From the NCBI GenBank assembly GCA_902533445.1, contig CACALX010000011.1, positions 1 to 32,908 of the forward strand: 32,908 nt of DNA. Reading direction: 5' to 3'. Shown piece after piece: positions 2,561 through 9,820 of the stretch. The notes under the pieces were generated by a model, which saw only the letters and a list, made by a program, of their open reading frames with translations, was not told the origin of the DNA and made no database searches. The position numbers and the translations under genes are program-made. Source of the DNA: an uncultured Pelagibacteraceae bacterium (GTDB lineage: Bacteria; Pseudomonadota; Alphaproteobacteria; Pelagibacterales; Pelagibacteraceae). Every line of letters begins with the position of its first letter. Positions within the stretch are counted from its first letter, which is position 1.

Positions 2561-2616
2561 GCAGATTTTTACCAATTTGAAAGATAGTTGTCATTCATTT
2601 ATTATGGGACATATTG

Positions 2617-2701
2617 CGGTCGTGCTGAAATTGGTAGACAGGCACGGTTGAGGGCCGTGTGGACCTAGTCCATGAGAGTTCGAGTCTCTCCGACCGCACC
2701 A
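2617..2701 (+). tRNA. tRNA-Leu (GAG anticodon), CCA encoded
   Basis: The acceptor stem GCGGTCG (2617-2623) pairs with CGACCGC (2691-2697), followed by discriminator A and an encoded CCA. The D-loop region contains AATTGGTAGAC. The anticodon arm CACGG-TTGAGGG-CCGTG puts GAG at 2650-2652. A long class II variable arm (TGGACC-TA-GTCCA) and the T-arm GAGAG-TTCGAGT-CTCTC complete the leucine tRNA. It would read CUU/CUC codons. The last 34 bases, from within the variable arm to CCA, are duplicated at 4333-4366, which marks it as the attachment site of an integrated element. Confidence 0.97.
2668..2701 (+). repeat. attL-like site: 34-bp 3' end of tRNA-Leu, first copy
   Basis: These 34 bases are identical to 4333-4366; identity stops on both sides (CTA|GTCC versus AAT|GTCC, and ACCA|GAAT versus ACCA|ATTA). 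The copy covers half of the variable arm, the T-arm, the 3' acceptor strand and CCA. Tyrosine-recombinase elements typically use this segment of a tRNA gene and restore it on integration. Confidence 0.9.
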
Positions 2702-2751: not shown

Positions 2752-2777
2752 CTAAGTGTGCTCAGAGTGTGCTCGTT
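2752..2777 (+). repeat. Internal element repeat, left copy (putative recombinase arm site)
   Basis: CTAAGTGTGCTCAG followed by AGTGTGCTCGTT matches 4257-4282 in 25 of 26 positions. Each copy is itself a tandem of two GTGCTC units spaced ten to eleven bases apart. Both copies are in the same orientation and lie about 50 bp inside the element ends, as expected for integrase arm-type sites. The function is inferred from placement only. Confidence 0.6.
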
Positions 2778-2833
2778 TTTTTTCAATTTAAAACCATTTA
2801 GACTCAACGTTTAGTATTTGCTATTATCAAGCA

Positions 2834-3484
2834 ATGTACAAACTATTAAACTACAAAAATCCTAAGATAACAGAAAAAAATATTAATTTTAGAAATTGGG
2901 CTTTGTCACAAAAAAATTATTTAAGAATTAGAATATATTTTGGAAAAGAAAGCCCATTTTTTAAATTTGAAAAAGATTTTAATAGTCAAAGTATAAAAGC
3001 TGAGGGTGGTTTAATTTTTGAACCAATTTGCGAATTACCTAAGTTTGGATTTTTCAAAAATTTTTATTCACATGAATCAAATAGAATTGAATTGGACGTA
3101 TCAACTAAAACTGATATTGATTTAGATACTTATAACAATCTTTATAAAACAAATTATTTATTTAAAATGCCTGAAAGAAAAAAAATATATGGTTTTTTTA
3201 AACTTATCAAAGAAGAAAAAAACTTTGATTTTTTTTATGGAAATTTTATTTCAATAAATAATTCTTATGAAAATTATATAAATTCTTTGTATGAATTATT
3301 TAGAGACGATAAAAAATCTTTTGTGGTAAATGCTGTTATACAAAAAATTAATGAATGGGAATCATGGCCAATAATTAGCTTGGGATTTAATAGTGAGTAT
3401 AGCGAAATTATTAAAGATGAATATTTTGATTTCCCAAGTTTTCTTGAAAGACCGTATGAATCTGATATTTTGTATAAAAAATAA
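2834..3484 (+). CDS. Unrecognised 216-aa protein of the tRNA-Leu element
   Basis: I do not recognise this protein. It is 216 aa, rich in Phe, Tyr, Asn and Lys, with no obvious signal peptide, membrane segment or catalytic motif. The pattern looks like a soluble alpha/beta protein with aromatic-rich strands (for example FGFFKNFYSH and NFDFFYGNFI) and a C-terminal EWESWPIISLGF segment. It is the first gene inside the element, and its stop codon overlaps the next start as TAATG, so it is probably co-translated with the 56-aa gene. It could be cargo or an accessory gene of the element. A defence or regulatory role cannot be inferred from sequence alone. Confidence 0.65.
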   Translation: MYKLLNYKNPKITEKNINFRNWALSQKNYLRIRIYFGKESPFFKFEKDFNSQSIKAEGGLIFEPICELPKFGFFKNFYSHESNRIELDVSTKTDIDLDTYNNLYKTNYLFKMPERKKIYGFFKLIKEEKNFDFFYGNFISINNSYENYINSLYELFRDDKKSFVVNAVIQKINEWESWPIISLGFNSEYSEIIKDEYFDFPSFLERPYESDILYKK

Positions 3485-3654
3485 TGACCATAATTGAAAA
3501 AACTTTTGAGACCAAACCATCAGATAAAGAGTTAAGTTGTTTTATTGCAGACATGATTTTGATGAAGGGATATCATAATATGGATGTTGTATATGACGAA
3601 ATCAATTGTCCCGAGTATATCAAGTTTAAAATATATGATCAGAAAGAAGTTTAA
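3484..3654 (+). CDS. Small 56-aa protein coupled to the 216-aa gene
   Basis: The ATG at 3484 overlaps the preceding TAA by one base (TAATG), a common translational-coupling arrangement. The protein begins MTIIEKTFETKPSDKEL, is acidic to neutral, and contains MILMKGYHNMDVVYDEINCP in its middle. No family is recognised. The exact stop/start overlap and a composition unlike random A/T-rich sequence favour a real gene. Confidence 0.5.
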   Translation: MTIIEKTFETKPSDKELSCFIADMILMKGYHNMDVVYDEINCPEYIKFKIYDQKEV

Positions 3655-3671
3655 CAAAAAGAGTATATTTT

Positions 3672-3800
3672 ATGGATAAATATTTAATTGAAATTCTGAA
3701 TAACTATAAATTAAAAAAAACTAATATTAGATTTGAGAACACTTTTTTGTATAAGTTTCTAAAAAAATCTAAAAATGGCGAACTTAACAAAAAAACTTAA
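3672..3800 (+). CDS. Possible 42-aa basic peptide in the element
   Basis: This ATG-initiated frame encodes MDKYLIEILNNYKLKKTNIR and onward, 42 residues, strongly basic. It starts 17 bases after the 56-aa gene and overlaps the 149-aa gene out of frame by 26 bases. It has no convincing ribosome binding site and no known motif. It may be a real tiny gene in the run, or chance reading through A-rich DNA. Confidence 0.3.
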   Translation: MDKYLIEILNNYKLKKTNIRFENTFLYKFLKKSKNGELNKKT

Positions 3801-4224
3801 AGAAATAGAAAATAGAATTAATCTAGATCGATCAAAAAAAATAATTTTAACTAAAAAGGTTGAACAAAGAGAAAAGAAAATCCATTTAAATCATATTAAA
3901 AAGTGGAATTCTGGTATTTTAAACAATAAAACTTTTATTAATAATCTTAATACGATCCAAGAGAGATTTAGAAAAATTAATCCAAAAGATAGTAGATATT
4001 CATGGATGTTTTATGCTGCTGATATATCCAGTAGGGAAAAAGTTAAAGATCAGGTAGCATTTTATGTTAATAATCAGAAATTATATCTACAGCTTTGTTT
4101 AGATGGACTCTATTCAAGGGTAGAATTGTATAATGGACATGAATATAAAATAGATAAATTAAAAAAAGGAAAAGAAGAATTTTTAAATTTAATATTAAAA
4201 GTCTTCGAAGATCAAAATCATTAA
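3775..4224 (+). CDS. Unrecognised 149-aa Lys-rich protein of the element
   Basis: This 149-aa protein begins with a charged, probably helical or coiled-coil stretch (residues 1-50, KKLKEIENRINLDRSKK) and then has a more mixed region with SRYSWMFYAADISS and VAFYVNNQKLYLQLCLDG (about 75-115). There is no signal peptide or membrane segment, and no family is recognised. It is the last gene before the right-hand repeat and attR-like site. A basic N-terminus could suit nucleic-acid binding, but that is a guess. Confidence 0.6.
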   Translation: MANLTKKLKEIENRINLDRSKKIILTKKVEQREKKIHLNHIKKWNSGILNNKTFINNLNTIQERFRKINPKDSRYSWMFYAADISSREKVKDQVAFYVNNQKLYLQLCLDGLYSRVELYNGHEYKIDKLKKGKEEFLNLILKVFEDQNH

Positions 4225-4256
4225 TTAATCTTCATAATTTTGAATCTTTAATTTTT

Positions 4257-4282
4257 CTAAGTGTGCTCAGATTGTGCTCGTT
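4257..4282 (+). repeat. Internal element repeat, right copy (putative recombinase arm site)
   Basis: This differs from 2752-2777 only at one base (CAGATTGTG instead of CAGAGTGTG). It lies 50 bp before the 34-bp tRNA repeat at 4333, mirroring the 50-bp distance of the left copy from the tRNA end, though in direct rather than inverted orientation. Confidence 0.6.
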
Positions 4283-4332
4283 GAAAGTTGTATTTGCAAA
4301 ATTAGTAAGTTAATTAATATTAAATAGACAAT

Positions 4333-4366
4333 GTCCATGAGAGTTCGAGTCTCTCCGACCGCACCA
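4333..4366 (+). repeat. attR-like site: displaced 34-bp copy of tRNA-Leu 3' end
   Basis: This is a perfect copy of 2668-2701 (half variable arm, T-arm, 3' acceptor strand and CCA). No D-arm, anticodon arm or 5' acceptor strand lies upstream, so it is not a second tRNA gene. It marks the far junction of the inserted element, nine bases before the ygfZ stop codon at 4376. Confidence 0.9.
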
Positions 4367-4375
4367 ATTAATTAG

Positions 4376-5266
4376 TTATTTACCTATCCACTCAGGTTTT
4401 TTAATTTTGATTGATGCTTCTTTTGTTTTGAATTCAGCATTTTCATCAAAATTTTTATCTAGAAATTTTATTAGAGCAAAAGGATATTCATTATTTATAA
4501 GTACTTTTCCAATCTCATTTTCTTTATTAAAAATACCCTCACCCTCATGCAATTTCCCATCTATAATATTTATCGGTAATAATCTTTTTGTAAGTTTATT
4601 TTTAAGTTTTATCCTGGCTGTATTTTCCTGACCAACGTAACAACCCTTTTTAAAATCAATTCCATTAAGTTCATCATAATTACATTCAATTCCAAAAGCT
4701 TTGTTTTGTAATTGATTTAAGTTTTTTGGCACTATTCCAAGTTTGTGACTTAGTGAATAATATTCATTTATATCCGCATCATGTAATTCTAATTTTTTTA
4801 AAGATAAATATAGCTTCTCTAAATTGATAATTAATCTTGCACCTAATTTTTTGTTTCGAGGATCTAAAATTATTGGATCTTCCCTAAACTTCAAAGTAAA
4901 TCCGGGAACATCTTGTGCCTCACTAAAGGCCAAAAACTTTTCATAACTAAAAGCAGCAACCACAAACTCATTACTAAGATTTAAAATTTCAACTTTTGAT
5001 CTTAATTTGTAAACACTAAGTTGCTTATATAATTCATCCGCTTGAGATTTTTCGCAATCGATCAAGTAACCTGACTTATGCTTAACTATAATGAATTCAT
5101 ACAAAAACTTTCCTTGAGGAGATAGTAATGATGCAAAGCAACTGTAGGTTTCACTTACCTTGTTAATGTCATTACTAATTAGGTTTTGAAGAAAACTAAC
5201 AGCATCATCTCCATTTATATAAAGAATGGCCCTGTCTTCTAAAATGTAAACGTTTTTGATATTCAT
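4376..5266 (-). CDS. ygfZ: YgfZ/CAF17-family folate-binding Fe-S maintenance protein
   Basis: This 296-aa protein belongs to the aminomethyltransferase-like YgfZ family, which binds tetrahydrofolate and supports assembly or repair of certain Fe-S enzymes. The hallmark KGCYVGQE motif with its conserved Cys is at residues 207-214 (C209), followed by TARIKLKNKL. The N-terminal stretch INGDDAVSFLQNLISNDI is also typical. It is cytosolic, with no signal peptide. Its 3' end abuts the displaced tRNA-Leu repeat, so this is the host gene flanking the insertion. The next gene (dihydroorotase) is divergent. Confidence 0.88.
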   Translation of the reverse strand: MNIKNVYILEDRAILYINGDDAVSFLQNLISNDINKVSETYSCFASLLSPQGKFLYEFIIVKHKSGYLIDCEKSQADELYKQLSVYKLRSKVEILNLSNEFVVAAFSYEKFLAFSEAQDVPGFTLKFREDPIILDPRNKKLGARLIINLEKLYLSLKKLELHDADINEYYSLSHKLGIVPKNLNQLQNKAFGIECNYDELNGIDFKKGCYVGQENTARIKLKNKLTKRLLPINIIDGKLHEGEGIFNKENEIGKVLINNEYPFALIKFLDKNFDENAEFKTKEASIKIKKPEWIGK

Positions 5267-9046: not shown

Positions 9047-9820
9047 ATGAAAAAACTTAAATTGTTTGCTCTAGCAGCTATGACCTTAATAGGTTTTTCA
9101 GGTGTAGCTATTGCAGCAGAAGCAACGATGTTGATGCAAGATGACTTCGTAGGAATATCATTCTGGGTTATCTCTATGGGAATGTTAGCAGCTACTGCTT
9201 TCTTTTTCATGGAAGCAGGCAATGTAGCATCAGGCTGGAGAACGTCTGTTATTGTTGCTGGTCTAGTAACTGGTATTGCATTCATACACTACATGTACAT
9301 GAGAGAAGTATGGATTGCTACGGGAGACTCGCCAACTGTATACAGATACATTGACTGGTTAATCACTGTGCCTTTACAGATGGTAGAATTCTATTTAATT
9401 CTAGCAGCTATCGGTAAAGCAAATTCTGGAATGTTCTGGAGATTGTTAATTGGTTCATTAGTAATGCTTATCGGTGGTTACTTAGGTGAAGCAGGATATA
9501 TTAATGCTACACTAGGTTTCATTATCGGAATGGCAGGTTGGGTATACATTCTTTATGAAGTATTCTCAGGTGAAGCTGGTAAAGCTGCAGCGAAGAGTGG
9601 TAACAAGGCTCTTGTAACTGCATTTGGAGCAATGAGAATGATTGTTACAGTAGGTTGGGCAATTTACCCATTAGGTTATGTATTTGGTTACTTAACTGGT
9701 GGAGTAGACGCTGACTCACTTAACGTTGTTTATAACTTAGCTGACTTCATTAACAAAATTGCATTCGGTCTAGTAATCTGGGCTGCTGCAACTAGTTCTG
9801 CGGGAAAAAGAGCTAAGTAA
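9047..9820 (+). CDS. Proteorhodopsin, blue-tuned light-driven proton pump
   Basis: This 257-aa seven-helix retinal protein starts with a cleavable-looking signal (residues 1-24, ending IAAEA). Key residues are in register with the classical proteorhodopsin at an offset of +6: H81 (H75) in IHYMYMR, R100, the Schiff-base proton acceptor D103 (D97) in YIDWLITVP, E114 (E108, the proton donor) and retinal lysine K237 (K231) in FINKIAFG. The spectral-tuning position (105) is Q111, the blue-absorbing state. The protein should pump protons outward in the inner membrane. No retinal-synthesis gene (blh, crt) is in the window. The gene has its own promoter region, a strong ribosome binding site and a strong terminator, so it is probably monocistronic and highly expressed. 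Confidence 0.98.
   Translation: MKKLKLFALAAMTLIGFSGVAIAAEATMLMQDDFVGISFWVISMGMLAATAFFFMEAGNVASGWRTSVIVAGLVTGIAFIHYMYMREVWIATGDSPTVYRYIDWLITVPLQMVEFYLILAAIGKANSGMFWRLLIGSLVMLIGGYLGEAGYINATLGFIIGMAGWVYILYEVFSGEAGKAAAKSGNKALVTAFGAMRMIVTVGWAIYPLGYVFGYLTGGVDADSLNVVYNLADFINKIAFGLVIWAAATSSAGKRAK

Follow-up and report, generated by a model that had tools for sequence, protein, structure and literature searches.

Candidate integrase arm sites at both ends of small tRNA-Leu(GAG) cassettes in SAR11 bacteria

SAR11 bacteria are among the most abundant bacteria of the ocean and are poor in plasmids and transposons, and the route by which their strains gain strain-specific genes is debated. Here we analyze a 32,908-nt stretch of DNA from an uncultured Pelagibacteraceae bacterium (contig CACALX010000011.1; "the window" below means this whole stretch), in which a 1,665-bp element with three open reading frames (ORFs) lies at a tRNA-Leu(GAG) gene, bordered by direct repeats. 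The closest described arrangements are lambda-type attachment regions at tRNA genes, including that of the pelagiphage HTVC011P, which combine a tRNA-derived core with short repeated arm units (P and P′); HTVC011P has an arm-like tandem with a 12-bp period on one side. The window element shares the core and the repeated units, but it has no recognized integrase gene, and the letters of its units differ from those upstream of all the SAR11 integrases inspected.

Other known systems resemble it in part. Integron gene cassettes are small mobile cargoes that depend on a recombinase encoded outside the cassette; the window element likewise has no recognized recombinase gene, while the difference lies in two tRNA-type attachment (att) ends with arms instead of a single attC. 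Phage satellites such as phage-inducible chromosomal islands (PICIs) have their own integrase and genes for replication or packaging interference, and no such features were found in the window element, whose cargo ORFs match no PADLOC or NCBIfam family and no Pfam or PHROG family above cut-off or at E 0.01. Tycheposons are also tRNA-bordered cargo elements of a streamlined aquatic bacterium. They are described as having 4–200 kb, a tRNA border and a tyrosine recombinase (PMC10872708), whereas the SAR11 cassettes measure 0.7–2.4 kb, with the window element well below 4 kb, and contain no recognized recombinase gene. Because neither recombinase nor satellite genes were found, we class the window element as neither a tycheposon nor a phage satellite. 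Cis-mobilizable elements (CIMEs) are described as keeping attL and attR, lacking integration and transfer genes, and deriving by decay from integrative and conjugative or integrative and mobilizable elements (ICEs, IMEs), with cis-mobilization after tandem accretion (PMC5704250). Measured against that description, two of the three features recur here, since both att ends are kept and no integration or transfer gene was recognized. As to the third, no parent ICE or IME with these arms was found, and one genome (G190, below) indicates a past tandem of two cassettes; what separates our case from a CIME is a family of small cassettes at a standing site, with signs of recent cargo movement. Lastly, SAR11 islands with integrases of a family that we call A2 (loci L264–L281) also have a tRNA-derived core followed, after tens of bp, by a tandem with an 11- or 12-bp period, but they encode the integrase right after the arm and use other unit sequences.

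The window element has direct core repeats at both ends, one of which completes the target gene, and short repeated units on both sides, inside the element, at 53–56 bp from the core on the left (13 of 14 related elements) and 50–53 bp on the right (9 of 9). Comparison between genomes shows that insertion was precise, that the 34-bp core is duplicated, that the paired arms are conserved and that cargo is common to different hosts. We consider it quite likely that the 26-bp repeats of the window serve a tyrosine integrase of the lambda type as its P and P′ arm-type sites, at the ends of a non-autonomous tRNA-Leu(GAG) cassette. The cassettes are probably mobilized in trans; no cognate integrase was found. 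What appears to be new is that integrase-free cassettes targeted to a tRNA form a family, with core and arm sites conserved among its members; this would be a variant of the lambda-type attachment region.

Arrangement and conservation of the cassette ends

The two repeats (CTAAGTGTGCTCAGAGTGTGCTCGTT on the left, CTAAGTGTGCTCAGATTGTGCTCGTT on the right; Table 1) agree at 25 of 26 positions in direct orientation, and the core GTCCATGAGAGTTCGAGTCTCTCCGACCGCACCA is present as two identical direct copies, the left one being the 3′ end of tRNA-Leu(GAG). The gap between core and repeat is exactly 50 bp on both sides (2702–2751 and 4283–4332). At the centre of each repeat is the motif TGTGCTS-4 nt-TGTGCTS, i.e., two 7-bp units with an 11-bp period, about one helical turn. 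A first-pass annotation of this DNA had pointed to the one-mismatch repeat pair, to an internal tandem of GTGCTC and to the 50-bp symmetry around the cores; all three hold, the unit being TGTGCTC in both copies. A chance origin of the pair is rejected by dinucleotide shuffles of the element, none of which (0/100) gave a comparable pair (26-bp direct pair, at most one mismatch, at least 8 G/C). With up to three mismatches GTGTGCTCNNANTGTGCTC matches the window at the two arm sites only, where 0.07 matches are expected, and two matches were seen in 1 of 100 whole-window shuffles. The same tolerance gave no third copy of the 26-mer in the element's own assembly (1.13 Mb, 87% complete).

The repeat is also confined to such elements elsewhere. 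Searched with up to three mismatches in 300 genomes of the genus, its own included, the 26-mer occurs at 8 places in 7 genomes and the reversed pattern at none. All eight places are in tRNA-Leu(GAG) elements, namely the window's two and six further loci, five of which include the tRNA; in the sixth (G061) the 26-mer stands beside the second core with the tRNA 2.3 kb off. Scattering over SAR11 genomes away from integration sites, which the earlier annotation had named as evidence that would count against an arm function, is thus not what is observed. An order-wide search (58 genomes: its own, 20 more of the genus and 37 of other genera, some of them searched before) returned the window's two copies only. 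The looser motif TGTGCTSANANTGTGCTS has 19 places in 14 of 399 genomes, of which 11 are at tRNA-Leu(GAG) elements, one is at tRNA-Val and seven are read as coding. Six of these seven, of the form TGTGCTCAAATTGTGCTG, were discarded as att sites (near-identical context, Peptidase_M24 in both that were scanned), and the seventh, in G057 (L027), lies in a ribonucleotide reductase.

A test that does not depend on the arm motif gives the same picture. The exact core pattern GAGAGTTCGAGTCTCTCNNNCCGCACCA is found in 198 of the 399 genomes and in two copies in four of them (G000, G061, G115 and G251; rows read by eye), and all four carry arms. The other three arm carriers at tRNA-Leu(GAG) have a single core: in G254 and G105 the contig ends soon after the left end, and G190 is rearranged.

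Scanning genome contigs with the 18-bp arm pattern TGTGCTSABAKTGTGCTS gave 114 stretches and added seven further SAR11 genomes, for 14 tRNA-Leu(GAG) elements including the window's. Both attL and attR lie on one contig in 8 of the 14, plus G115 in permuted order, and no second core is present in G190, AH-326-F07 and AH-287-G05. Where a single contig shows the two ends in normal order (eight elements), the length is 678–2,444 bp. Their geometry is nearly constant: the first left-arm unit is 55 bp from the core in 11 of the 14 elements, 53 bp in one and 56 bp in one, G190 having no left arm, and the last right-arm unit ends 50–53 bp before the core in every element with a visible right end (9/9). 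Pairwise identity of the 7-bp units is 0.96/1.00 at the left (n = 13) and 0.94/0.91 at the right (n = 9), values somewhat favored by having located the arms with one substitution allowed, though none of the nine right ends was dropped. Elsewhere it falls to 0.73/0.47 in the spacers to the core and to 0.39/0.37 in the interior. The three variable acceptor-stem letters of the core match between both copies in 9 of 9 elements (read from the alignment), as expected if the tRNA must stay functional.

The cargo varies. Domains found include glutaminase with ankyrin repeats (G061), T5orf172 (G254), 2OG-Fe(II) oxygenase (AG-337-D17), DUF805 (AG-919-F09), a trypsin-like domain (AG-333-A04) and DUF1330 (G105, with the same ORF in G190, AH-326-F07 and AH-287-G05); the remainder have no assignment. 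No integrase was recognized in the visible parts of the 14 elements, as judged by Pfam for ten cargo proteins of eight elements and the window's three, and by translations or other libraries for the remaining cargo ORFs. By tblastn the window's cargo has no match in the fetched loci at E 0.01.

Table 1. Features of the window element and its flanks (window coordinates).
Feature	Position	Strand	Basis
tRNA-Leu(GAG), integration target, intact at the element's left end	2616–2701	+	ARAGORN; empty site in relative G256
Left core-type repeat (attL), formed by the tRNA gene's 3′ end	2668–2701	+	34/34 identical direct repeat
Left arm-type site (candidate); TGTGCTC units 2757–2763 and 2768–2774, 11-bp period	2752–2777	+	Repeat match; near-constant core distance
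Leader, left arm to first cargo gene; contains TTTAGACTC (2797–2805)	2778–2833	+	By eye
Cargo ORF, 216 aa, without family match	2834–3484	+	Family searches
Cargo ORF, 56 aa, without family match	3484–3654	+	Family searches
Cargo ORF, 149 aa; weak sub-cut-off matches only, best E 0.016	3775–4224	+	Family searches
Right arm-type site (candidate); TGTGCTC units 4262–4268 and 4273–4279	4257–4282	+	Repeat match; core distance
Right core-type repeat (attR), then ATTAATTAGTTATTTACC	4333–4366	+	ATTAATTAGTTATTTACC directly follows the tRNA in G256
Flanking chromosomal gene nadA	1571–2575	−	PF02445, E 7e-114
Flanking chromosomal gene, GCV_T-like folate-binding protein	4376–5266	−	PF01571, weak, E 8e-6

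In the leader, TTAGACTC (2797–2805) recurs 3′ of the left arm in 11 of the 14 elements, by eye, and may be a promoter or accessory-factor site. The G254 cargo (L009:2874–3461) matches the candidate defence family PDC-S57 (E 1.4e-70). In two DUF1330 cassettes (L065 and L077, in AH-326-F07 and AH-287-G05) the left end is present, but the sequence up to the GCV_T-like gene holds no second core; these cassettes are apparently locked in place. G115 has both att ends on an 11.9-kb contig (L011, G115:C19), separated by ~10.7 kb of host genes whose order is permuted, nadA adjoining a 171-aa gene instead of nadC; this may be a rearrangement, a circular molecule or an amplification chimera.

Empty sites and traces of movement

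The relative G256 has an empty attB, in which the tRNA is directly joined to the sequence that lies 3′ of the window's right core, and its sequence is 95% identical to the joined window flanks over 1,462 bp. Three more loci (L369, L370 and L372) are also empty, with 19–20 bp between the tRNA and the GCV_T-like region. The other six of the ten fetched single-core genomes are not simply empty (~203 bp in four, 1.2 kb in one and 1.4 kb in one), and no arm- or core-like sequence was found in these six intervals between tRNA-Leu(GAG) and the GCV_T-like region. The ~203-bp interval (L367, L368, L373 and L375) holds a small ORF, and its first ~25 bp resemble the left end of a cassette by eye.

Signs of movement come from comparing cargo with host sequence. 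G254 and G251 have 722 bp of cargo in common at 99.2% identity, while their nadA regions are 83.6% identical; the genes before the common stretch are different, and the match runs to the end of the G254 contig. In other element pairs with a shared stretch the contrast to host identity is small or absent. A different kind of trace is seen in G190 (L010, G190:C13; arm 9553–9570). The sequence left of its single arm matches the AG-919-F09 cassette at that cassette's right end (95% of 120 bp), whereas the sequence on the arm's other side matches the left end of the cassette in G105 (97.5% of 120 bp). The simplest reading of this junction is that two cassettes once stood in tandem and were fused at one arm copy, with loss of the intervening core.

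The arm motif also occurs at a different tRNA. In G365 (G365:C12, L034:8410–10218) the 5′ half of tRNA-Val(TAC) is duplicated, and a TGTGCTC arm stands 52 bp from it, bounding an element of ~1.8 kb with no integrase recognized in its ORFs. The other arm of this element is degenerate (TGTGCACAGAGTGTGCTT) and is separated from its core copy by ~97 bp; it may be a chance match.

Integrases with a similar arm arrangement

Searching viral contigs for the predicted attP geometry (two TGTGCT pairs 130–160 bp apart, core unconstrained) gave eight contigs. In seven of them a tyrosine integrase gene adjoins the arms, with tRNA-like sequence between or beside the arms by eye, and PF00589 was found in all four of these seven that were scanned; the seven fall into three groups and so count as at most three independent cases. 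Contig L258 was discarded as an attP because its match is a simple repeat, and of six matches in a further viral-contig search four were already in the integrase group, while L364 and L365 look like chance. Among bacteria, L063 (Sulfuritalea) and L101 (a Rhodospirillales metagenome-assembled genome) have a TGTGCTG tandem at the 5′ end of an integrase gene, and a second contig of the latter genome (L126) has the identical tandem 105 bp from tRNA-Ser(TGA).

A profile built from L063, L101 and one SAR11 integrase defines the A2 family, found in 20 of the 399 SAR11 genomes. Among the SAR11 members, 18 are complete at the 5′ end, and in 17 of them an exact 6-bp tandem (period 11 or 12) is present within 90 bp upstream of the gene. 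In the controls such a tandem was seen in 1.7% of 3,600 shuffles and in 17 of 668 windows taken elsewhere in these loci. The 18 include several close relatives, and with about nine distinct units (e.g., TGTCACA, GGTCGCA and GTACTCA) the independent cases are fewer; the window's unit reads GAGCACA in the direction of the element interior. Arm-DNA-bind_3 integrases are present in four of the 399 genomes. Three of these (G000, G039 and G096) have a like tandem with other letters beside the target tRNA, an uncontrolled observation, and in two of the three the tandem is also found farther off, where the other end may lie; the fourth, G196, has tandems, and no tRNA was seen. Of 241 viral relatives of A2, 80 were retained, of which 31 have their upstream sequence cut off; in 36 of the remaining 49 there is a 7-bp tandem with a period of 10–13, many of them alike, again uncontrolled.

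HTVC011P, described as shown to integrate (PMC8163748), has its tRNA-Leu(TAG) core just 3′ of the integrase gene, with a 12-bp tandem ~62 bp beyond the core. PMC3861242 reports a contig from a pelagiphage that has an integrase and matches tRNA-Leu over 46 bp. In HTVC019P (L035) there is no TGTGCT tandem and no core (22 distinct SAR11 tRNAs tried). Of two cultured phages with A2-like integrases, the Mannheimia phage has a tandem near the integrase, and none was found in PAJU2.

Some further loci deserve mention. The window's own genome has a tRNA-Thr(TGT) element (L037:9567–16021, G000:C1) with a 451-aa Arm-DNA-bind_3 integrase, the tandem TGTAGTCGATTTGTAGTC and a 767-aa DUF5906 protein; this integrase was set aside as a helper because its own tandem is TGTAGTC. 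Two SAR11 island groups of four and six genomes (L264–L267 and L270–L275) have A2-family integrases beside tRNA-derived sequence, and G010 (L039) has a DNA methyltransferase-like ORF, named by eye, 3′ of its integrase. TGTGCTC-4 nt-TGTGCTC lies 80–103 bp from tRNA-Arg in L052, L107 (Massilia) and L147 (Herbaspirillum), and on the opposite strand 92 bp from tRNA-Asn in L110 (Spongiibacter), with no integrase recognized in any of these four loci.

The proposal of the first-pass annotation that the repeats are integrase arms gains support, by comparison of sequences, from the near-constant distance to the core, from arms that are far better conserved than both neighboring sequences, from tyrosine integrases beside a like geometry in viral contigs and from the 11/12-bp tandem upstream of SAR11 integrases. 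Its expectation that the 26-mer would flank integrase-bearing SAR11 elements is not borne out in the genomes and contigs searched: the elements found have no recognized integrase, and the integrases next to a TGTGCT-type tandem are in other bacteria and phages, not in SAR11.

Competing explanations and meaning for SAR11

If the repeats are arm sites, each cassette end consists of the core, ~50 bp and two 7-bp units 11 bp apart, with both arms in direct orientation. An integrase from a visiting phage or island would be supplied in trans; its N-terminal arm-binding domain is predicted to bind the units and its catalytic domain the cores. In the excised circle the attP would consist, in this order, of the right arm units, a 53-bp spacer, the core, a 55-bp spacer and the left arm units. 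The circle would integrate at tRNA-Leu in a different cell, and each such event would restore the tRNA. The cassette would contribute its ends and its cargo only.

Several results weigh against this reading. An integrase with TGTGCTC (GAGCACA) arms at tRNA-Leu(GAG) was found neither in the eight cassette-bearing genomes among the 399 nor in the viral contigs; none of these eight genomes, which are 54–87% complete, is among the 20 with an A2-family integrase; and the viral contigs gave no match to the exact 26-mer, the relaxed arm, the core or an arm followed by a tRNA-Leu core. None of the 49 viral A2 relatives has an AGCACA unit upstream. An integrase was recognized in 3 of the 207 loci with the 18-bp arm pattern (114 genome, 93 viral), namely L063 and L101, with the arm at the 5′ end of the gene, and L167, where it is 364 bp away, none of them SAR11. 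L256, L257 and L259 encode integrases with only ~20% identity to the SAR11 query, and so the agreement in arm letters may be partly convergent. Most of the matches examined outside SAR11, including many in genome contigs, are inside long ORFs, so that the short pattern alone is not specific; the 13 elements other than the window's were found through the arm motif, and the exact-core search overlooks any right core that has changed, as it has in AG-337-D17. The elements of G254, G105 and G115 reach contig ends, leaving part of each unseen, and contig names suggest single-cell assemblies, which can hold chimeras. Moreover, since the stretch common to G254 and G251 is cargo only and ends at a contig end, homologous recombination could have moved it. 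Of the 93 viral stretches with the 18-bp pattern, the 80 checked are mostly inside long ORFs (L154, the one scanned, is a ribonucleotide reductase), and in INPHARED the best 12 of 667 records cover the core of the window's right end and at most 11 bp beside it.

The most serious competitor, which we nevertheless judge unlikely, is that the cassettes are relics in the manner of CIMEs, i.e., remnants of an integrase-bearing island whose arms are genuine but disused, each cassette having decayed separately. It would account for the lack of a recognized integrase in any element, for the ends lost in AH-326-F07 and AH-287-G05 (no second core, though the contigs reach the GCV_T-like gene) and the missing left arm of G190, and for the fact that autonomous SAR11 elements start their integrase just inside one arm, a place that other sequence occupies here. 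Disused arms would not be expected to be the best-conserved part of both ends, next to diverged DNA; 14 elements without a recognized integrase remnant would need repeated clean loss; and cargo at 99.2% identity in hosts whose nadA regions are 83.6% identical speaks for movement. The first-pass annotation had taken the window element to have kept its cis sites while having no integrase. The sites and the lack of a recognized integrase stand, while a family of integrase-free cassettes fits better than the single decayed island that this wording suggests.

That all 14 tRNA-Leu elements are at one locus, that the spacer by the left core is fairly similar (0.73) and that the G254/G251 stretch is only part of the element would also suit homologous exchange, in which the cassettes spread through recombination of the nadA and GCV_T-like flanks with the arms hitchhiking. 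Such exchange leaves unexplained both the core duplication with its precise empty sites and the arm motif at tRNA-Val(TAC) in G365, and we regard it as very improbable. Least credible of all is a regulatory role, in which a regulator of the cargo genes would use the repeats as operators or promoters. The left arm does end 56 bp before the first cargo gene, but the right arm is beyond the cargo, on the core side, and the spacing is fixed relative to the core; the one promoter-like match in the leader (2799–2827) is of a kind found at shuffle level across the region, and in contigs that carry an integrase a like geometry is seen around the att cores. The favored explanation of the repeats remains that they are arm-type sites of a tyrosine integrase.

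A broader idea goes beyond this, and we offer it tentatively, as somewhat more doubtful than probable: SAR11 may hold a population-wide pool of integrase-free cassettes moved in trans, with one arm specificity reused at the tRNA-Leu 3′ end and the tRNA-Val 5′ half, and recombination between tandem arms fusing cargos as in G190, an integron-like two-component traffic built on lambda-type att sites. Among the titles listed by our literature searches none concerns integrase-free tRNA cassettes of SAR11, which is no proof of absence from print, and six exact 17- or 18-letter arm strings have no occurrence in the papers searched.

The comparisons suggest that SAR11 swaps genes in packages moved by an enzyme from elsewhere. 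Because circle junction, target and binding site can all be predicted from the cassette ends, this route of gene gain is open to direct test, and the ends provide a practical search rule for both elements and integrases: a direct pair of 7-bp units with an 11/12-bp period, ~50 bp from a tRNA-derived core. If the interpretation is correct, small cassettes with standard ends that borrow their integrase would be a concrete and cheap route of gene gain for SAR11; if the broader idea holds as well, one of the most streamlined free-living bacteria would possess an integron-like two-component system.

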